Shown here piece by piece: positions 31,870 to 42,658 of a DNA stretch of 42,686 nt (position 1 is its first letter; the number at the start of each line of letters is the position of its first letter). This DNA comes from Microcoleus sp. GA_180221_E-2-1-MAG-45_12. Lineage in GTDB: Bacteria > Cyanobacteriota > Cyanobacteriia > Cyanobacteriales > JAAUUE01. Below the pieces are notes generated by a model. The model was given only the letters and a program-made list of their open reading frames with translations, was not told where the DNA came from and did not search any database. Location: NCBI GenBank assembly GCA_020692245.1, contig JAIMKT010000032.1, positions 1 to 42,686 on the forward strand, written 5' to 3'. The position numbers and the translations under genes are program-made.

Positions 31870-33021
31870 TTATAAATAATTTCTAATACCTTCAATTGCT
31901 TGAATAAGGATGCTGGATGTTTGGTTAATTTCTGTGTTGGTAGTGAATTTTCCTATCCCTATCCTTAATGCTCCTTCCTGATGGCTATGTGGTAGAGCGA
32001 TCGCTCTAAGAACGTGGGAGGGGGCTTCTACTCCAGAGGTGCAGGCGGATCCTGTAGAAATAGCTAACTGATGGCGAATTCTAGCAATAATAGCCTTATT
32101 GGGAATATTCGGGATAGAAATGTGTAAATTACCTGCAAGACGATTTTGTATATCTCCATTGATAGCTAAATTAGGGATACCCAGCTTTAGTAAAGTTTGC
32201 AGGCGATCGCGCTTTTGAGCAATTAATTTTTCATCTGCCGCCATTTCTAGTTGCCGTAAACGACAGGCTTCGCCTAAACCTACAATGCTGGGAACATTAA
32301 GCGTACCGGGGCGGAGTTTCTGTTGTTGTCCACCGCCATAGAGTAAGGGCTGTAGCTGTAAACCCTTTTTGATTACTAATGCCCCAATGCCTTTAGGAGC
32401 ATAGAGTTTATGTCCTGAGATCGCCAAATAGCTAATTCCCCAATCATTAAAATTGATCGGGATTTTCCCTACTGCTTGGGAGGCATCACAGAGAAAGGGA
32501 ATAGTATATTTTTGGGCAATTTTGGCGATCGCTTCTATGGGGTAAATATTACCAATTTCATTATTGGCTGCCATGACGCAAAGTAAAGATAGTCCTTGAG
32601 TACAAGCTTTTTCTACAACTTCTAAATCTAATCGCCCTCGATCGTCTACAGGTAAAATAACAATTTCGGCTAACCCTTTTCGTTCCAAGGCAGCACAGGT
32701 ATCAAGGACTGCTTTATGTTCTACGGGCGTAATGGCAATCTTTTGAGGATAGGGGGCTGGTAAACCTTGGAGAACCAGATTAATACTTTCTGTTGCTCCT
32801 GAAGTAAAAATCACTTCTCTGGGCTTGGCTTGAACAAGTTCTGCTATATGTTGACTAGCCTGTTTGACGGCTAGATCTGCCACGTCTCCATAGCTATGGT
32901 CAATACTGCTCGGATTACCAAATTTCTCCGTCATGTAGTCTAGCACTAGGGCTGCTACTCGGCGATCGCAGGGAGTTGTAGAGTGGTAATCAAGATAAAT
33001 TGGCTGGGCGGCGGATAGCAT
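31870..33021 (-). CDS. sspA: Cysteine desulfurase (SspA/IscS-like)
   Basis: A 383-residue class V aminotransferase-fold enzyme that takes sulfur from cysteine with PLP. The PLP Lys205 is in 'SGHKLYAPKG', the PLP-stacking His102 in 'PVEHKAV', and the sulfur-accepting Cys327 in 'STGSACTSG'. It starts 'IYLDYHSTTPCDRRV', typical of IscS/NifS. It could serve general Fe-S assembly. Placement directly divergent from a DUF4007 gene and near SspC/SspD-like genes supports a role as the sulfur donor for DNA phosphorothioation. The name sspA is by context. Confidence 0.88.
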   Translation of the reverse strand: MLSAAQPIYLDYHSTTPCDRRVAALVLDYMTEKFGNPSSIDHSYGDVADLAVKQASQHIAELVQAKPREVIFTSGATESINLVLQGLPAPYPQKIAITPVEHKAVLDTCAALERKGLAEIVILPVDDRGRLDLEVVEKACTQGLSLLCVMAANNEIGNIYPIEAIAKIAQKYTIPFLCDASQAVGKIPINFNDWGISYLAISGHKLYAPKGIGALVIKKGLQLQPLLYGGGQQQKLRPGTLNVPSIVGLGEACRLRQLEMAADEKLIAQKRDRLQTLLKLGIPNLAINGDIQNRLAGNLHISIPNIPNKAIIARIRHQLAISTGSACTSGVEAPSHVLRAIALPHSHQEGALRIGIGKFTTNTEINQTSSILIQAIEGIRNYL

Positions 33022-33157
33022 GGTGACTGGATTTATAAATTTAGATTCACACGATTAATCTTATACAACTACAATGGATGATGCCTGATTTAACAATTTG
33101 GGACAAAGCTCTAGTAATAGCCTCCAACCCAAACATATTGGCAGAGACAAACACACA

Positions 33158-34084
33158 ATGGTTAAACAACTTCAACTAGAGATAATAGTTCCAAGGCAAG
33201 ATACAACTCTTTACTTTGCTCGCCATGAAACCTTTTATCCCCGGTTTGGCTGGCTGAAGAAAGGTTTTGAAGCTGTAAATAGAAATCCCCAAATTTTCTT
33301 GGCGGAGGATGCCCATATCCAGTTAGGGGTGGGAAAAAACATGGCAAAAGCAATTCGCTATTGGTGTGGAGCATTTAAGCTGATCCAGTCAGATTCGACA
33401 CCATCTGAGTTGGGAACTAGTTTACTGGGTGATGATGGTTACGATCGCTACCTAGAAGACCCAGCGACTCTGTGGTGGCTCCATTGGCATCTCCTGAAAA
33501 CGCCCTGCACTGCTACAACTTGGGATTTCACCTTCAACTCTTTTCGACAAGTTGACTTTACTCAAACAGTTCTAAACAATGCCCTTCAGGATAAATATGC
33601 AGGCAGTCGGGTAGCAGAATCTTCCCTTAAGAAAGATGTTGCCTGTTTGCTACGGATGTATGTTAAACAAAAATCAGCTACTAGCCTCAACGAGGATCAT
33701 CTGGATTGTCCTTTTGCGGAGTTAGGGGTGATCCATCAAGCTGGCAGCTCTGAGCATTTCACTTTTCGGATCGGGGCAAAACTAAATCTGCCTGCGGAGA
33801 TTATTGTGGCTGCTTGTTTAGATTATGCCGAATCAGTTGGCTCACAGCAGCGCACTATTTCTATTTTTAGTTTGCTTTTTGATCCGGGTAGTCCGGGGCT
33901 AGTGTTTAAGCTTTCTGAAAGTGCTTTGTATGATGCCCTTGAACAAGTATCCCGTTGGTGTAATGCCCTTACGCTCTCTGATAGCACTAGTTTATTGCAA
34001 ATGTCTTTTACTGAAGCTCCAAACCTTTTAAAAGAGAGAATCCTTGAGCATTATTACCAAGCAAATTTAACCACTTCTAGATAA
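33158..34084 (+). CDS. sspB: DUF4007 protein (SspB-like)
   Basis: About 308 residues from ATG 33158 (MVKQLQLE); a TTG at 33098 would add 20 unlikely residues. The DUF4007 pattern is seen: 'FARHETFYPRFGWLKKGFEAV', 'HIQLGVGKNMAKAIRYWCGAFKLI', 'DPATLWWLHWHLL' and the C-terminal 'FAELGVIHQ'. In characterised Ssp systems the DUF4007 protein SspB is a nicking enzyme needed for single-strand phosphorothioation. It is divergent from sspA, with a 136-bp shared upstream region, and is followed at once by the ATPase gene. Confidence 0.85.
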   Translation: MVKQLQLEIIVPRQDTTLYFARHETFYPRFGWLKKGFEAVNRNPQIFLAEDAHIQLGVGKNMAKAIRYWCGAFKLIQSDSTPSELGTSLLGDDGYDRYLEDPATLWWLHWHLLKTPCTATTWDFTFNSFRQVDFTQTVLNNALQDKYAGSRVAESSLKKDVACLLRMYVKQKSATSLNEDHLDCPFAELGVIHQAGSSEHFTFRIGAKLNLPAEIIVAACLDYAESVGSQQRTISIFSLLFDPGSPGLVFKLSESALYDALEQVSRWCNALTLSDSTSLLQMSFTEAPNLLKERILEHYYQANLTTSR

Positions 34085-34157: not shown

Positions 34158-37136
34158 TTGGAGCGGGATATTGATCAGTCGGAAGCTTTACAGGGCTATA
34201 TTCTCACGGAGCGATCGCACCATGCTCTACAACGCATTATTATTGATTCTACATTTTTCCATCGTACTAATGCTTACACAATCACTAGTATCTATGGCAC
34301 AGGGAAATCTGCCTTTGCTCACTTTTTAACCAGTTTGGTTGCCCCAGAAACTCATCCCACCCGTCAGCAAGCCCTAGATACCTGTCGAGGAGTTTTGAGT
34401 ACAGCAGACTATCACAGCTTAATCGAAAATTTACCCAAACAAGGCTTTTTGCGAGCGATCGCTACGGCAGGACATGAAGCTCTTGGATATACAGTGGTTC
34501 GAGCTTTACTGAGGGGAGCTAATAACTTTTGGCAAAAGGGAAAGAAACAACCGGAAATTGTCAAAAAGTTAGTAGACCTAGAAATAGAATTAGCTACTGG
34601 GGAAAAAGTCGATAATCAACGCATCTTAAAAATAGTTGTCGAAGTGATTAAGACTGCCCAAACTCCAGCGCTACTCCTAATTGATGAATTGGGTAAAAAT
34701 TTAGAGTTTTCTGCCTTGCATTCTGGTACAGAGGATTTATATTTACTGCAACAACTGGCAGAACTGAAAACGCCCCAAGCATTCTATTTAGTTGGTTTAC
34801 TCCATCAATCTTTTGCTGACTATGGCGATCGCCTAGCGACAGTCCAACGAAATGAGTGGTCAAAAATTCAAGGACGTTTTGAAGATATTGCCTTTGTTGA
34901 TCGTCCCCGACAAATGACAAAATTAATTGGGCAAGCGATCGTCCCTTTACAAACTGTAGCTACTGAGCTTAACGAAAATCCTGAATATGATTCTTTAATT
35001 CAACTACAAGCTGCCGATTGGTATCACAAGCTAAGTACAGACTTTGATGATCTTTCTCCAGAATTAATTGCCGCAGTTTATCCCCTACATCCCATCACAG
35101 CTTTGGTTTTACCAGTTCTTTGTACTCGCTATGGACAGAGCGATCGCTCCCTCTTTACCTTCTTGACTAGTACCGAACCCTATTCTTTTCAAAGTTATCT
35201 TAATACTACAGAAATTATCCCAGATTTGCTGCCAACCTTGAAATTAGATCAACTCTATGACTACTTTATTGCTGCGGTGGGAACTGGGTTTGCTGCCCGT
35301 CCCCAATTACGCAAGTGGTTAGAAATCCATGATTTGATTAGCAATATGACTTCTTTGACAGCTACAGAAACTGCTTTATTAAAGACTATTGGCATTCTTA
35401 ATTTAGTAGATGGTAATGGTGAACTAAAAGCTAGTCTAGAACTAGTTAAATTGGCTATGAGTGATCAAGCTAATGATATTCACCAACAGGAGCAAATTGC
35501 TAATTTAATTGATGAATTTCATGCTGGAAAAGGGATTATCAATTATCGTAAACAAGCTAATGAGTTACGGCTTTGGGAAGGCACAGATTTTGATATTGAA
35601 GCAGAAATTAGTAATCTAATCTCTCAAGAGCGATCGCCCTTAGCTACAAATTTAACTGCCTCTTTCCCCCTACCCCCAGTAATTGCCCAACGCCACAGTT
35701 ACCAGATTGGTGCAGTTCGTTATTTTGAGCGCTGTTATCTAGATAATGCTGAAGATTGGTCGAAATTAAGTTGTTCTAACTCTGGTTATGATGGGCTGAT
35801 TGGCTATTGGGTTGGGGAAGATTTACCCCAGAATGTCCCGGTTATGACTACTGATGGCAAACCGCTAATTATTCTCAAAGCGGAAAACCTTAACCTACTG
35901 CAAATTGCCGCAGTGGAGTATCGGGCTTTGCAGAAATTGCAAGACAGACCGGAGTTAGATCAAGATATGGTTGCCCGCCGAGAAGTGCGGTTTCGTTTAG
36001 TACAAGCAGAGCGATCGCTGGATGAAAGGCTCTCTCAGGCTTTTTCTTTCCAGCAGTGTGATTGCTGGCTGCTGGGGGAGCGGGTAATTATTCGCAATCC
36101 TCTTGATTTTCAGACTCAGCTTTCGGCGGTTTGCGATCGCATTTACGATCGAAGCTTGATTTTGTGGAATGAACTGATTAACCGTCGTCAACTCACAGCC
36201 CAAGGGGTAAAGGCTATGCGGTTGTTGATTGAGGCGATGCGGTTGTTGATTGAGGCGATGCTGGAGCGGGGAGATGTTGAGGATTTGGGTTTGCAAGGGC
36301 AGGGACCAGAAGTTAGTATCTACATTTCTGTCCTGAAAAATACGGGTATTCATCGACAAGAGGATGGCGTTTGGGGCTTTTACCCGCCTACAGAAACGGG
36401 GATTATAGCTACATGGCAGGCGATCGAAGATTTTTGTTTGGCAGCTACTCAAAAACTAGCCACCCTTGATCGTCTTTATACCCAGTTAGAATTACCTCCC
36501 TATGGTGTAAAACGGGGTGTGGTTCCGGTTTTATTAGCGGCTGTGCTGTTGTATCGGTTAGAAGATGTAAGTGTTTATAAGGATGGTACATTCATTCCAG
36601 TTTTGGGGAGTGAGCATTTTGAACTCTTGGTAAAACAGCCTCAACGATTTGCGGTGAAGCATTTTGAAATTGTTGGTTTACGATCACAGGTCTTCCGGGA
36701 ATTAGAAACAATTTTGCGTCATCCCCATGCCAAAATTCCTACAGGAATTCGCAATGCTACAATTCTTTCTGTGGCTAAACCCTTGTTTCAGTTTGTCAAA
36801 AAACTCCCTACCTACACTACTAAAACTAAGCAAATCAGCCCGGAGGCTCAAGCAGTTATTCAGGCTCTGCTCACTGCTCAGGAGCCAGATGATTTGATTT
36901 TTACGGCTTTACCTGTGGCTTGTAGTTTAGAAGCAATTGGTATCAGTGAAGATGCAGATCAAGACTTATTTATTGCTAGAACTTTTCAAGAAAAATTGCG
37001 AGGGGTCTTAATTGAAATTCAATCTACCTACGATCGCCTATTAACAGATTGTAGAGGGTTACTACACAATGCTTTTGGTTTACGCAGTGAGGATAAAAAA
37101 CTTAGAAGTGACTTTACTATTTATCACCAGCATTGA
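34158..37136 (+). CDS. sspC: Large P-loop ATPase (SspC-like), N-terminus uncertain
   Basis: At least 992 residues. Walker A is 'YGTGKSAF' (Lys50-Ser51 counted from TTG 34158) and Walker B is 'LLLIDELGK' (Asp176-Glu177). The rest is a long helical region with no other recognised catalytic motif, as expected for SspC, an ATPase of the phosphorothioation machinery. The start is a problem: upstream in frame there are 29 more sense codons (LLDNFNKFINQVLAEYF...) that look coding, then a TAA at 34068, then TTG AGC ATT ATT from 34044 overlapping sspB. No ATG, GTG, TTG or CTG lies between that TAA and 34158. So either TTG 34158 is used, or the gene has an in-frame stop. A 21-bp in-frame duplication is at 36216-36257. 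Confidence 0.8.
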   Translation: MERDIDQSEALQGYILTERSHHALQRIIIDSTFFHRTNAYTITSIYGTGKSAFAHFLTSLVAPETHPTRQQALDTCRGVLSTADYHSLIENLPKQGFLRAIATAGHEALGYTVVRALLRGANNFWQKGKKQPEIVKKLVDLEIELATGEKVDNQRILKIVVEVIKTAQTPALLLIDELGKNLEFSALHSGTEDLYLLQQLAELKTPQAFYLVGLLHQSFADYGDRLATVQRNEWSKIQGRFEDIAFVDRPRQMTKLIGQAIVPLQTVATELNENPEYDSLIQLQAADWYHKLSTDFDDLSPELIAAVYPLHPITALVLPVLCTRYGQSDRSLFTFLTSTEPYSFQSYLNTTEIIPDLLPTLKLDQLYDYFIAAVGTGFAARPQLRKWLEIHDLISNMTSLTATETALLKTIGILNLVDGNGELKASLELVKLAMSDQANDIHQQEQIANLIDEFHAGKGIINYRKQANELRLWEGTDFDIEAEISNLISQERSPLATNLTASFPLPPVIAQRHSYQIGAVRYFERCYLDNAEDWSKLSCSNSGYDGLIGYWVGEDLPQNVPVMTTDGKPLIILKAENLNLLQIAAVEYRALQKLQDRPELDQDMVARREVRFRLVQAERSLDERLSQAFSFQQCDCWLLGERVIIRNPLDFQTQLSAVCDRIYDRSLILWNELINRRQLTAQGVKAMRLLIEAMRLLIEAMLERGDVEDLGLQGQGPEVSIYISVLKNTGIHRQEDGVWGFYPPTETGIIATWQAIEDFCLAATQKLATLDRLYTQLELPPYGVKRGVVPVLLAAVLLYRLEDVSVYKDGTFIPVLGSEHFELLVKQPQRFAVKHFEIVGLRSQVFRELETILRHPHAKIPTGIRNATILSVAKPLFQFVKKLPTYTTKTKQISPEAQAVIQALLTAQEPDDLIFTALPVACSLEAIGISEDADQDLFIARTFQEKLRGVLIEIQSTYDRLLTDCRGLLHNAFGLRSEDKKLRSDFTIYHQH
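36216..36257. repeat. 21-bp in-frame tandem duplication in sspC
   Basis: The unit ATGCGGTTGTTGATTGAGGC plus G occurs twice in a row and encodes MRLLIEA-MRLLIEA. It keeps the reading frame and looks recent because the copies are identical. Confidence 0.85.
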
Positions 37137-37192: not shown

Positions 37193-37438
37193 TTATTGTT
37201 GAGCAAGACCGGATAAAGTCTGTACATCAGCATCTAAATCTTCAACTTCATAATGAATACAAATATCTCGGCTAGAAATAAGCTGCTGAAACTCAATTAA
37301 GTGCATTTCTAGTAAACTACTGGCTTTACCGATCGTGATTCTTTTATCTCTAAAAAGCATTAAGATAATCTCACGCAATAGTTCTATTTCGCTGAGATGA
37401 GAAGCAGCTATGATTTCATCAGGAATTACTAAGCTCAT
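37193..37438 (-). CDS. UPF0175 family protein (antitoxin-like)
   Basis: An 81-residue UPF0175 protein. The family pattern is 'LREIILMLFRDKRITIGKASSLLEMHLIEFQQLISSRDI', ending in an acidic 'YEVEDLDADVQTL'. The central helix-turn-helix-like part suggests DNA binding. In cyanobacteria UPF0175 proteins are often paired with a DUF3368 PIN toxin, but no such partner is adjacent here. It reads against sspC and HNH and separates them. Confidence 0.85.
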   Translation of the reverse strand: MSLVIPDEIIAASHLSEIELLREIILMLFRDKRITIGKASSLLEMHLIEFQQLISSRDICIHYEVEDLDADVQTLSGLAQQ

Positions 37439-37465: not shown

Positions 37466-38593
37466 ATGGTATATAAATTTAACGATACATCAGATCTGCC
37501 GCCAGCAAATGGAATAAATGTTGGATGTCTATCAAGGTTATTTGATAACACAACAACTTCCTATAAGTATGTTTTCTTTTTATCCTTGTTAGAAATTCTT
37601 AGCTATAGATTTTTTGATGCTTCAAAGCCAATTTTGCTAAAAGACATTTTAATTGAAATGTTGGTCAATTCTTGGTACCCTCACTGTTTCTTTAGACTCT
37701 CATTTGGCTTACAAGATCAAATTGCATCACAGCTTAATCGTTTAGAACTAGTTGTAGGTAAGCAAGGGATAAAAGGAGATTTTCAGAGTAAAGAATATTT
37801 AAGAGAGCTAATTAGGAAAAGAGAAGTTGACAATTCACTCCTCAATTATGTTCCATTTCGTATAAATACACCATTCTTTAGGCAAGAGTTGAAAGGTCTA
37901 AAAGATTATCAAGTTAACAAGGCTATAATTGAACTATCAAATGAGTATTTTCAAACTCGGAAGCCTTTATTTAGATATACTCAAGATATTTTAGGTGTGG
38001 TTGTACATCCTGAATGGTCTATGTACTTCAAGGCAAATTATGCAATTGTAAAGGGCTGGATATTATGGGAATGGTTACAGTATTTACAAAAATGTAATCC
38101 TAGTATTCCAGCAATCAGCAACAAATTATTCCCTCCTCAGTGTAGGGAATCTCTTAGCTCTCAAACCACTTACTGGAAGTCGGTTTTAGATCATATTCAG
38201 TTACGATGTATTTATTCGGGAGAACTTTTACAAACAGAAAACCTTTCTTTAGACCATTATCTACCTTGGTCTTTTGTAACTCATGATTTGCTGTGGAATC
38301 TCATTCCTACATCAAGACAAGTAAACTCCTCTAAGTCTGATAATTTACCTTCTAGAGAATATTTTGAACCATTTGTAGCAATGCAACACTCTGGTCTATT
38401 AACTACCTATCAAAACTTGAAACAGAATAAGTGGAATAATTACATTGAGCCGTATATTTTAGAATTACGAGTTACCAGCAAATATGATCTACTCGATTTA
38501 GAAAAGTTACGCTGTGCCTACGAAGCCGTTTTACTTCCACAAATTAATCTGGCGATCAGTCATGGCTTTACTCCTAACTGGAGATATCACTAA
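37466..38593 (+). CDS. HNH endonuclease in the phosphorothioation island
   Basis: A 375-residue protein whose C-terminal third carries an HNH motif: 'LDHYLPWSFVTHDLLWNLIP' (residues 262-281, Asp263-His264, Asn278), with the following Asn287 in 'RQVNSSKSDNLP'. This is the HNH_4-like form with a single upstream Cys (RCIYSGE) instead of a zinc pair. The first 230 residues have no recognised domain; they are rich in aromatic residues and could bind DNA or read a modification. It lies between the sspC-like and sspD-like genes, so it is the best local candidate for the enzyme that cuts DNA in this system. That role is inferred from position. Confidence 0.8.
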   Translation: MVYKFNDTSDLPPANGINVGCLSRLFDNTTTSYKYVFFLSLLEILSYRFFDASKPILLKDILIEMLVNSWYPHCFFRLSFGLQDQIASQLNRLELVVGKQGIKGDFQSKEYLRELIRKREVDNSLLNYVPFRINTPFFRQELKGLKDYQVNKAIIELSNEYFQTRKPLFRYTQDILGVVVHPEWSMYFKANYAIVKGWILWEWLQYLQKCNPSIPAISNKLFPPQCRESLSSQTTYWKSVLDHIQLRCIYSGELLQTENLSLDHYLPWSFVTHDLLWNLIPTSRQVNSSKSDNLPSREYFEPFVAMQHSGLLTTYQNLKQNKWNNYIEPYILELRVTSKYDLLDLEKLRCAYEAVLLPQINLAISHGFTPNWRYH

Positions 38594-38746: not shown

Positions 38747-39275
38747 TCAGATCGCAAAAATTTCCTTGGGGATTAATTTTAATTCGGGGAATAGTTGAGA
38801 TTTAATTTTATCTTGATCTCTATAAACAATCTCTTCATAAAGATCATTTTTTAGGAGTAATACACTAACTTTGCGATCGCTAAAATCAATAATCCAATCT
38901 TCAGGAATCTCGATTGCGTTATACTCTATCCTTAACTAATAATGGAACAGTTTCTTTTAATACCGCTTCACAAAATTTGATTCCTTCCCACTGCTCAAGG
39001 GTAATGACTGTTACAGCAGGAATCCGACAAGTAATCTTGCTACTGATATAGGTTGTCTGAACCGCAATCAGTTCTTGTTTTGAAATTAAAGGTAACTGTA
39101 AGCGTTGAATCTCCGATCGAAAAGTATCATTGATAAATTCACAAATCCCTCCATGAATTCCTGTTGGTTGAGCCATTGCTACTAATTCCCCTTGGACTAA
39201 TTCATATCTTGTATCTGTGCCATCAGCATAGGCGAGATATTCTGCAAGTGTGAGTTTAGAACTAACAGCAACCAT
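38747..39275 (-). pseudogene. Broken Uma2-family gene
   Basis: The first part, from ATG 39275 ([19 protein letters not shown]), reads as a normal Uma2 protein to 'ETVPLLV'. The frame then ends at 38919. The C-terminal part continues in another frame, '[24 protein letters not shown]' to 'LKLIPKEIFAI', and stops at 38747. Compared with the intact paralogue at 25987-26550, the 'IEIVSPSN...' catalytic segment is missing at the join, so a deletion of about 40-60 bp shifted the frame and removed the site. It reads downstream of the sspD-like gene, 16 bp after its stop. Confidence 0.85.
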
Positions 39276-39291
39276 TTTGAGTACTCCAAAA

Positions 39292-40101
39292 CTATAAATG
39301 ACAAGCCATACATGGCATTTCACAATCTTGATCGTCAAGAACAATTTCTAAAACTTCTGCCAGTGATCGCTTCCCTGAAGACTTTTGTCCTTTGAGCAGG
39401 GATTGCTCATGATCGGCAATAATTTCATCCTTACGCCCGATCAGCTCCAATAAAGTTTCACCCTGCACCCATGTGTAGGAATAACCTCGGTCTTTAGTAG
39501 TTTTTCTTTCATATTCTACAGCTTGAGCAAAGAAATATGGGTGTTCCTCTGAAAGCCTTACCCATTCATACCTACGCTGGAAAAAGCAAAAGAAACAACC
39601 TGACCGAGTTCGCCAACGATAGTAGTCTGGCAGACCAATACCACTATCATCAAGTATCTGTAAGATATCAGCTTTGACCAAACCATCTTCTTTGAAGGGG
39701 AAGACAGGTTTAATATTAGGCTTTGTTGAGATATAGCCATCTCTATTCTCATCTGCTCGAATACCTATATAACTATATGCTTCATCACTACCAATAAAGG
39801 CTTCCAAAGGCTTAATCTTCATTGTTTCAGTACACCAGCGCATTTTAGGCGAAGGTAATACTCCTCCATACACATCCAGCCAATGATCGAAACCTCTTTC
39901 AGGACTGAGATATTTAATCTTTATCCCTAAACGAGCTTCAATCCGTCTCAGGTAGTCATAGGTTTCTGGTAATTCCTTGTGCGTATCGCAAAAAAAATAC
40001 TCCATAGGCAAGTCTGGATATTTTTGTTGCATCCAAATTGCCAGAGCCGTACTATCTTTGCCCCCTGACAGACCGAGGATGTGTCTAACTTTGTTGCCCA
40101 T
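39292..40101 (-). CDS. sspD: PAPS-reductase/ATP-pyrophosphatase protein (SspD-like)
   Basis: A 269-residue N-type ATP pyrophosphatase of the phosphoadenosine phosphosulfate reductase superfamily. The PP-loop is '[10 protein letters not shown]' (residues 11-20). Other features are '[14 protein letters not shown]', Cys90 in 'MRWCTETMK', Cys169/Cys172 in '[10 protein letters not shown]' and a C-terminal '[10 protein letters not shown]' (Cys260, 264, 267). In Ssp systems SspD is this kind of protein and adenylates DNA for sulfur insertion. A free PAPS reductase for sulfate assimilation is less likely in this context. It is transcribed opposite to sspB-sspC and diverges from the methyltransferase. 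Confidence 0.85.
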
Positions 40102-40289: not shown

Positions 40290-40568
40290 ATGAGTACCCT
40301 ACTATCAAGTACCTTGAGTACACCACATAAAGAAATTATTACTCTTTGTCAACAAAGCAAGATTGGCAAGAAACTTCCTAGTGCCTTGTATATTCATATC
40401 TCTGCCACCTTAACCCTAGCTACGATTCTACAGGAATACGAACAGCAAGCTAGAAAACTCCTCCCTGAAGGTACTCTATTCACACTAATCAAATTCAACT
40501 ACGATCGCCCCACCATCTCTTACCTCCATTACCCAAATTTCGATACTGACCCCCACATCCTGCCCTGA
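40290..40568 (+). pseudogene. N-terminal part of the frameshifted methyltransferase
   Basis: A 92-codon frame: 'KIGKKLPSALYIHISATLTLATILQEY' to 'ISYLHYPNFDTDPHILP', then TGA. The same domain recurs near the C-terminus of the large downstream frame ('ALYVHISALESLETMLRLY' to 'YPKFDLEPHP'). After the stop the homology continues in the next frame (LNNSTQVNLTTQTVQHRDYSK...), so the gene was one unit. A single missing base near the CCC at 40563-40565 would explain the split. Confidence 0.85.
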
Positions 40569-42397
40569 ATAACAGCACCCAAGTTAATCTCACAACCCAA
40601 ACAGTACAGCACAGAGATTATAGTAAAGTTGCTAACCGCCCCGTCTTGCATCGGAAAGAAACCTTTGTAACTTCAGACTATCCCCTCTACCTAGATTTTC
40701 AACAACTAACGCAACAAGAAGATGCGATCGCCCTCCTGAATCATAATCAGGCGATCGGCACTCAGCAAGGCTGGCAACAAAGACTCCAAGAACGCCAGGT
40801 TAAAATTGTGGGACATCAAGTTATTCCCCTCCAGTCCCAGCAAGAAATTCAACCCAAGATCGATCGACATAAAGCTGCTATTCATCGGACAAGTCTTTCC
40901 AAGCCCGTTCGCCTTGCCCTCGAAGCAGAACTATTTACCCCAGAAACAAGTTTTTTTGACTACGGCTGCGGTCATGGCAGTGATATGAAATTCCTTGCTA
41001 GGCAGGGTTTTTCTAGTTCCGGTTGGGATCCTTACTATCGAGCCTATACAAACCTCTGCCCTGCTGCGATCGTTAATCTTGGCTACGTCATCAACGTCAT
41101 CGAAACCCCAGCGGAAAGGAGAGACGCTCTACTCAAAGCTTGGGAACTAACTCAACAAGTTCTTATTGTTTCGGCTCAGGTCTTAATTCATGACACCACG
41201 AGAGGACATATTGCCTACAGTGATGGCGTAATAAGCAGTCGCAACACCTTTCAGAAATATTACGAACAGGAAGAACTAAAACTTTATATCGATCAAGTTT
41301 TGGGTGTAGATGCAGTTCCCGTAGCTCTAGGAATTTATTTTGTCTTCCGCGATGAAGCCCAAGCCCAAAGTTTCCGTGCCTCTCGATTCCGCTCCCGTGC
41401 CACCACTCCCAGAGTCCGTTTGACGACAAAACGCTTTGAAGATTATCAAGAACTTTTATCACCTTTAATGAGTTTCTTCACCGAGAGGGGTAGATTACCT
41501 GTAGGCGAGGAACTGAGTGCATTCGCACCTCTTTTAGCAGAATTTGGGACTATCCGCCGTGCCTTTGCTGTAATTGTCCAAACTACGAATCAGCAGGAAT
41601 GGGATGTTATTGCGGATAAACGCCGTCAAGATATTTTAGTGTATCTAGCTTTAAGTAATTTTGATAATCCTTATAAGCACTTAAAATTCAGTCAATTCTC
41701 GTTGCCCTATCAAATAGATATTAAATCTCTGTTTGGTTCCTATCAAGCCGCCTGGGTTGCCGCTGATTTGATGTTGATGAATCTTGGTCGAGATGGATTT
41801 ATTGCTAGTTGTTGTCGCAATAGTCAGGTTGGCTACTTAGACGAACAAGCTCTTTACGTTCATATCTCTGCCCTAGAATCTCTAGAAACGATGCTTCGCC
41901 TCTACGAAGGTTGTGCTAGCCGGACTATTGGTAGATTAGATCGTGTAACAATTATAAAATTTCATCTCCACAAGCCAAAAATCACCTACTTGTTCTATCC
42001 AAAATTCGATCTAGAACCCCATCCTCAATTACATACTGCCATGCAGGTAGATCTGCGCGATTTACAAGTGCATTATCGCGATTATGCTAACAGCGATAAC
42101 CCGCCAGTCTTACACAAGAAAAATGCTCATGTACTAGATGAGTATCCCCTATATAAAAAGTTCGCACGACTGACTAAGCAGGAGGAGAATTGGGGACTGC
42201 TAGATGATAGGAAAGCGATCGCTTCGCTTAAGGGGTGGCAAAACTGTCTCCAAGGGCATTGTGCAGAGTTACAGGGACATCGCTTGGTCTGGAGCAAAGA
42301 TGCCGATCCTAAAAAAATAAAAGTTCTTAAAAGTCGGTTAAAGGGAATTATTCTAAAACAACGTGAGTTCGATGAAAAAAAAGGCTCAGACGTATAA
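40566..42397 (+). CDS. Phosphorothioation-associated putative methyltransferase (main part)
   Basis: The frame is open from about 40566; the first usable start inside it is TTG 40646, giving 583 residues. The SAM-binding motif I is 'FFDYGCGHGSDMKFL' (about 103-117), followed by 'LGYVINVIETPAERR'. The architecture is an N-terminal segment (YPLY...QGWQQRL), a methyltransferase core with 'RNTFQKYYEQEELK' and 'ASRFRSRATTPRVR', then a repeat of the N-terminal domain. This matches the family named DNA phosphorothioation-associated putative methyltransferase (recalled as TIGR04096). With the frameshift upstream, the intact protein would have had about 700 residues. Whether it still works is unclear. 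Confidence 0.82.
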
Positions 42398-42430: not shown

Positions 42431-42658
42431 ATGATTATCATTCCAGCCCGTCTTGACCTTGAGCAAATATATTGCGATGTGGACGACTTTTATCAAATCT
42501 GGACGCAATTTGTGGAGTTCTTGCCTCAACTACCTTATGAGGGCAAAGCTAAACACTACAAATCAAAGTTGAGTATTAGCGAAGTCATGACCATCGTGAT
42601 TGCCTTCCATGGCTCAGGATTTCGTACCTTCAAAGATTTCTATACTTTGCAAGTATAG
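42431..42658 (+). mobile_element. IS982-family transposase, truncated N-terminal part
   Basis: A 75-codon frame that matches the start of IS982-type transposases: 'LEQIYCDVDDFYQIW', then 'KLSISEVMTIVIAFHGSGFRTFKDFYTLQV'. Full-length IS982 transposases are near 290 residues with a DDE site that lies later and is missing here. The frame is interrupted right where the 28-bp terminal repeat starts, so it is a fragment. Confidence 0.85.

Follow-up and report, generated by a model that had tools for sequence, protein, structure and literature searches.

The 42,686-nucleotide stretch of DNA analyzed here (the window) is one whole contig of a 132-contig, 4.2-Mb genome, with the sequence past the contig ends out of view. 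It carries a gene for an HNH protein among the genes of the Ssp phosphorothioate (PT) modification system, and so raises the question of whether this protein is a new restriction partner of SspABCD, as proposed in a first-pass annotation, or a nuclease with some other relationship to the modification.

The HNH gene and its surroundings

The HNH gene was confirmed as an open reading frame (ORF) at positions 37466-38593 of the forward strand, encoding 375 aa, with a predicted helical SBD-like N-domain (residues ~11-226) followed by a C-terminal Cas9-type HNH_4 domain (residues 231-367). HNH_4 (PF13395, residues 248-295, 4.3e-10) was the sole Pfam match at E ≤ 0.1; the DUF262/ParB-like GTPase domain (PF03235) was absent, and PF13395 stands in place of the SspE-type C-terminal DUF1524 (PF07510). 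The large N-terminus, described as unrecognized in the first-pass annotation, proved to be so, as residues 1-230 have no match in Pfam, NCBIfam, or PADLOC. Asp263-His264, His273, Asn278, and Asn287 are invariant across 54 diverse relatives, and the closest solved homolog of residues 228-367 is the Cas9 HNH domain (Z 4.3-6.5). The AlphaFold model of the protein has a mean pLDDT of 92. In four lineages the N-domain is encoded alone (L056-L059; in L056, a DUF6997 protein follows), and many cyanobacterial copies, as judged by eye, bear an N-terminal XRE-like helix-turn-helix that the window copy lacks.

All four Ssp proteins of the window matched their PADLOC models at 1e-112 or better. The sspA-type cysteine desulfurase gene (31870-33021, reverse strand), which DndA models fit too, sspB (DUF4007; 33098-34084, forward strand), and sspD (PAPS-reductase family; 39292-40101, reverse strand) are full length, and SspC alone is short, leaving the window without a full-length SspABCD set. 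The sspC gene (34158-37136, forward strand) is 3′-truncated: its 992-aa product, versus ~1,160-1,190 aa in HNH-free loci, aligns to residues 1-1004 of 1173, and the conserved C-terminal ~170 residues of SspC were found nowhere in the window. The placement of the HNH gene between sspC and sspD holds by position, but the arrangement is not a clean operon, with a UPF0175 small-protein gene on the opposite strand (37193-37438, reverse) intervening between the truncated sspC and the HNH gene, and with sspD inverted relative to sspB and sspC behind a truncated Uma2-family gene (38919-39344, reverse strand; 141 aa, covering positions 10-128 of a 207-position model). Farther along lies a gene for a DNA phosphorothioation-associated putative methyltransferase (40646-42397, forward strand; TIGR04096, 725 bits), which has repeated internal matches and a fragment duplicated upstream at 40290-40568. 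At the contig end, the ORF at 42431-42658 has no Pfam match and looks by eye like the 5′ end of a transposase gene, which may be why the contig ends at that point.

As the first-pass annotation had stated, known effectors are missing from the window: a PADLOC scan of 20 window proteins returned no SspE, SspFGH, or DndFGH, and the ten further proteins, scanned with Pfam only, had ordinary annotations or none. The possibility raised there that SspE is encoded just beyond the window was rejected on the genome-wide set of DUF262 genes. The source genome has three of these, all on contigs other than that of the HNH gene, with no SspE among them; DUF1524 is present in just one, which is GmrSD-like and scores 718 bits to PADLOC 'Orf5' versus 71 to SspE. 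No plasmid copies near-identical to the window locus were found.

Recurrence beside ssp genes and breakage of the modification genes

Full-length or nearly full-length relatives of the HNH protein (E < 1e-59) are carried by 23 of 386 cyanobacterial genomes, one of them as a pseudogene. In the proposed check for co-occurrence with DUF4007, DUF4007/SspB was present in 14 of these 23 genomes versus 31 of the 363 others (odds ratio 16.7, p = 4e-9), an association exceeding chance. An ssp gene or remnant lies within ~10 kb of the HNH gene in 16 of the 23 carriers and in the other 7 does not. Outside cyanobacteria, such genes or remnants adjoin it in Chloroflexota (L154, L158, L162, L169) and Bacteroidota (L160, L172), but most of the non-cyanobacterial loci examined, among the best-scoring 80 of 557 relatives, are without ssp genes. 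The recurrence beside SspBCD, a condition set in the first-pass annotation, was borne out for cyanobacteria and a few Chloroflexota and Bacteroidota loci, and failed for about a third of the cyanobacterial and most of the non-cyanobacterial carriers examined.

Several further features of these loci resemble those of a dedicated partner, namely a restriction arm of an SspABCD variant that would be gated by self PT in the manner of SspE and would attack unmodified phage DNA. Besides the strong linkage, 44 of 47 ssp-linked HNH copies point the same way as the ssp gene closest to them (p = 2e-10, a value that ignores relatedness), and HNH distances correlate with those of SspB (0.69) about as well as SspA distances do (0.67). 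No SspE-type gene is linked to the HNH gene in the cyanobacterial genomes searched, and 83.9% of 2,678 sspBCD loci were reported to be without a known effector (PMC8092258). In addition, SspE is harmless without PT (PMC13251355), so a partner of this kind could survive PT loss. Even so, this explanation is considered doubtful in view of, among other points, the state of the modification genes described below.

An iterated SspB profile also caught a second, divergent DUF4007 paralog, and the extra hits in L095, L099, L105, L122, and L125 were excluded from SspB; this paralog also occurs near the ssp loci L183 and L188, and some loci with it also carry a ~1,800-aa protein and PglZ. Weak 'SspD' hits (1e-5 to 1e-10) were DndC-sized proteins and were likewise excluded. 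A locus was scored as broken if sspC or sspD was truncated or sspD was missing from it, whereas natural splits of sspC and a single frameshift did not count as breaks.

Among loci with full-length SspB, 19 of 27 with the HNH gene were broken versus 1 of 15 HNH-free loci (p = 7.5e-5). The systematic sample alone gave 6/11 versus 1/15 (p = 0.02), and phylogenetically independent pairs gave an excess of about 7:1 (median p ~0.07). In HNH-free SspB loci (L177-L193), sspC and sspD are full length except for one locus with a split sspC and two loci cut by contig ends. For seven carriers lacking SspD in the locus (G197, G213, G280, G093, G174, G091, G308), a search of the rest of the genome turned up no full SspD. 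Redundancy with Dnd was rejected as a cause of the breakage, as intact dndC shows no clear difference between genomes with the HNH gene (15 of 20 searched) and those without (9 of 16). By count, 8 of the 27 loci are intact; apparently intact SspB, SspC, and SspD accompany the HNH protein in at least seven loci (L038, L043, L046, L047, L048, L099, L128), four of them in one clade, and in one clade the gene lies cleanly between intact sspC and sspD. This coexistence favors a partner; against one, some intact loci, such as L047 of Geminocystis, hold a full alternative candidate effector set (in L047, DndB-like, PbeA-like helicase, HATPase).

Many of the breaks abut the HNH gene, at SspD codon 21 or 64, SspA codon 72, 142, 187, 217, or 304, SspC codon 114, 429, 717, 897, or 907, and helicase codon ~178. 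The junctions vary by lineage, and many lie only tens of bases from where the HNH gene starts or ends; truncated gene interiors flank the gene on one or both sides in L124, L125, L162, and L169, and the junctions in L102, L101, and L119 clearly reflect later decay of neighbors. Comparison of related loci shows what was lost: relative to L187 (91% identity), the HNH gene of L128 replaces a DndB-like gene together with the 5′-terminal 545 bp of a PbeA-like helicase gene; relative to L178, that of L103 replaces sspD and the helicase 5′ end; and relative to L177, that of L036 replaces the sspC 3′ end, sspD, and the helicase gene. In the HNH-free cyanobacterial ssp loci L177, L178, L180, and L181, a PbeA-like SF2 helicase is found together with an HSP90-like HATPase (MzaB-like), and these two are likely an unrecognized Ssp effector pair. 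In the cyanobacterial loci L051, L184, L187, and L189, the neighbor of sspD is a gene for a ~770-aa protein that matches DndB (PF14072) weakly.

The HNH gene itself is under purifying selection, even where the ssp genes are gone. For close pairs, its dN/dS ranges from 0.1 to 0.3: it is 0.11-0.13 among L101-L104, which lack sspD, and 0.24 between L041 and L119. Two Halomonas lacking Ssp give 0.15, and L115 versus L120, at an orthologous position with no trace of ssp genes, gives 0.195. A dedicated partner should be found neither with a broken modifier nor conserved without one, and an SspE-like arm, while tolerating PT loss, should decay afterwards. An arm like DndFGH, SspFGH, or DndI should harm cells without PT (PMC8092258, PMC11662687) and therefore would not persist where SspD is gone. 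The lack of an SspE-type DUF262 NTPase domain and the many ssp-free relatives outside cyanobacteria also weigh against a partner. The proposed restriction role is therefore only partly upheld, with the linkage and the absence of a linked SspE on one side and the broken loci and retention without ssp on the other. Since the HNH gene is found mostly where ssp genes are broken, its product may sense sulfur-marked DNA rather than simply partner the modifier.

The N-terminal domain as a candidate PT reader

In the predicted structure, residues 15-222 of the N-domain align to residues 92-241 of ScoMcrA (5zmm_C), whose crystallized SBD spans residues 91-260 (PMC6224610), with Z 6.2 over 123 residues at 3.5 Å in VIA-align, a Z below the tool's own threshold for trust of 8. 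The best Z for the N-domain alone against 538 other chains was 4.4. Foldseek with the N-domain alone as query did not return an SBD, HMMER searches for an SBD (Pfam per member, PDB profile, and SBD HMM) gave no match, and NF045808 of NCBIfam matched neither the HNH protein at E ≤ 0.1 nor any protein of its own genome. An hhalign comparison with the SBDs of cyanobacterial SBD-HNH proteins and ScoMcrA aligned 46 columns, with a score that was reached by 6 of 150 decoys when columns were shuffled and by 0 of 100 when blocks were shuffled. The sulfur-pocket residues compared were ScoMcrA His116-Arg/Lys117 and Tyr164-Pro165. The alignment sets the invariant Tyr33-Lys34 on the SBD His/Arg-Lys pair, which lines the sulfur pocket (PMC6224610), but the Tyr-Pro pair has no clear counterpart, as Tyr71-Pro72 is offset. 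The N-domain is treated as a likely SBD-like PT reader; the suggestion that this region reads the modification is backed by a predicted resemblance, with PT binding a putative property. An SRA domain was rejected as an alternative reader, with no match above the cut-off in 292 cyanobacterial genomes.

If the N-domain instead recognizes something else, the protein would be a PT-independent defense nuclease riding defense islands, with ssp operons as one favored site. The structural case for an SBD is weak, and in Chloroflexota, Halomonas, and others the neighbors of the HNH gene are, with no Ssp present, HIT or methyltransferase-HIT genes, while in L115 and L120 it stands alone between housekeeping genes. 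On the other hand, the gene is concentrated at ssp loci across phyla, SspA or SspB remnants adjoin several apparent orphans (L034, L108, L110), and the invariant Tyr-Lys occupies the SBD-equivalent position, making PT independence unlikely.

Two neighborhood patterns were recorded in these surveys. Outside cyanobacteria, the HNH gene is often paired with a methyltransferase-HIT fusion (L163, L164, L166, L167, L154, L162) or a lone HIT-domain gene (L147, L156, L161, L151). In Thiothrix (L153, 457-2550), a canonical SBD-HNH gene lies ~70 bp downstream of the HNH gene; as the one such case, it was not taken as a regular neighbor.

A proposed PT-dependent nuclease and its relation to known systems

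The reading preferred here, given a probability of about 40%, is that the HNH protein is a PT-reading, type IV-like nuclease that has been captured by ssp operons and often outlives them. Computation shows that the gene is linked to ssp genes and codirectional with them, that its catalytic residues are conserved, that Ssp genes are lost where they meet it, and that it stays under purifying selection without Ssp; we infer, in addition, PT binding, cleavage, and incompatibility with the Ssp modifier. The protein would act like the type IV/IIM PT-dependent enzymes ScoMcrA and EcoWI, with the N-domain using Tyr33-Lys34, in a divergent SBD-type pocket, to bind PT DNA, after which the HNH domain would nick or cut near the PT site. 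Captured into ssp operons, the gene would be co-expressed with ssp genes, and because its product would act on PT-marked DNA, it would fit poorly beside an Ssp modifier that is active in the same sequence context. Most carriers would therefore no longer have a functional sspC or sspD, and the retained nuclease would restrict PT-marked DNA entering the cell. A PT-dependent nuclease fits both the persistence of the HNH gene once PT is lost and the surplus of broken modification genes.

Cutting of self PT should kill the hosts of the intact loci, so a different sequence specificity or some control would be needed there, and the presence of dndC in most HNH genomes suggests that Dnd-type PT is tolerated; any PT specificity would thus be limited to the Ssp context or controlled. 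A stronger version is quite unlikely: here the nuclease would be specific for Ssp-type PT and incompatible with the SspBCD writer, could establish in PT-positive cells only if the writer is broken, either by its arrival or by a later deletion, and so would repeatedly displace PT systems at the loci of those systems. A selfish, homing-like, or mobile HNH gene inserting into ssp genes, with the truncations as insertion scars, would account for HNH ends so close to truncated gene interiors at many positions and for at least 12 changes of HNH presence on the SspB tree, but is improbable given the codirectional copies, the clean placement in one clade, the conserved N-domain, some junctions produced by later decay, the lack of viral copies, and the fact that inspection of flanks by eye revealed no target sequence in common and no terminal repeat. 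A phage origin was set aside, as 2.9 million viral contigs yielded no HNH relatives.

Approximately 84% of known sspBCD loci are without an identified effector (PMC8092258). The family offers a specific candidate PT-reading nuclease for such loci, and the breakage pattern suggests a cause for the patchy survival of PT modification. The family also reaches a model cyanobacterium. On plasmid pSYSM of Synechocystis PCC 6803 (NC_005229.1, 21843-23219; L175), the homolog WP_011153553.1 sits between DUF4007/SspB, a truncated SspC, and cysteine desulfurases; a LAGLIDADG endonuclease gene adjoins it, and there is no sspD in the stretch examined.

HNH genes have been reported alongside the modification genes of Dnd or BREX systems (Rakesh et al. 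2024, PMC10853773; 2026 BREX survey, PMC12839542). The descriptions consulted in these surveys cover SAD/SRA fusions and standalone HNH proteins, the present N-domain family at ssp loci not being among them, and no published description of it was found in the literature as consulted. SspE and DndI (DUF262-DUF1524) are likewise HNH nucleases encoded with PT modification genes, but the present protein, at 375 aa, has neither DUF262 nor DUF1524 and does not depend on intact PT genes. With SspFGH and DndFGH it shares the PT-linked restriction role considered here; unlike them, it is a single protein without an ATPase or translocase, and it is kept in hosts without SspD, in contrast to SspFGH, which is toxic when PT is absent (PMC8092258). 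Cas9 has the HNH_4 domain in common with it, and no other Cas9 domain is present.

Also close are the SBD-HNH PT-dependent enzymes (ScoMcrA, SprMcrA, EcoWI; NF045808), which pair an SBD with a C-terminal HNH domain, as may be the case here. Both are rarely beside a modifier, dnd genes being adjacent to SBD-HNH genes in <3.6% of cases (PMC7461809). In contrast to this reported rarity, four of the cyanobacterial genomes compared have an NF045808-like SBD-HNH gene no more than ~3 kb from dndC (L200, L202, L212, and L217 in G116, G024, G284, and G197, respectively). The present protein differs in that neither SBD nor NF045808 matches its sequence, in its Cas9-type HNH_4 domain as opposed to the zinc-bound HNH of ScoMcrA, and in its association with ssp rather than dnd loci. 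Thus, the family is near the SBD-HNH enzymes in design, yet it is placed outside them because their sequence model fails to match it.
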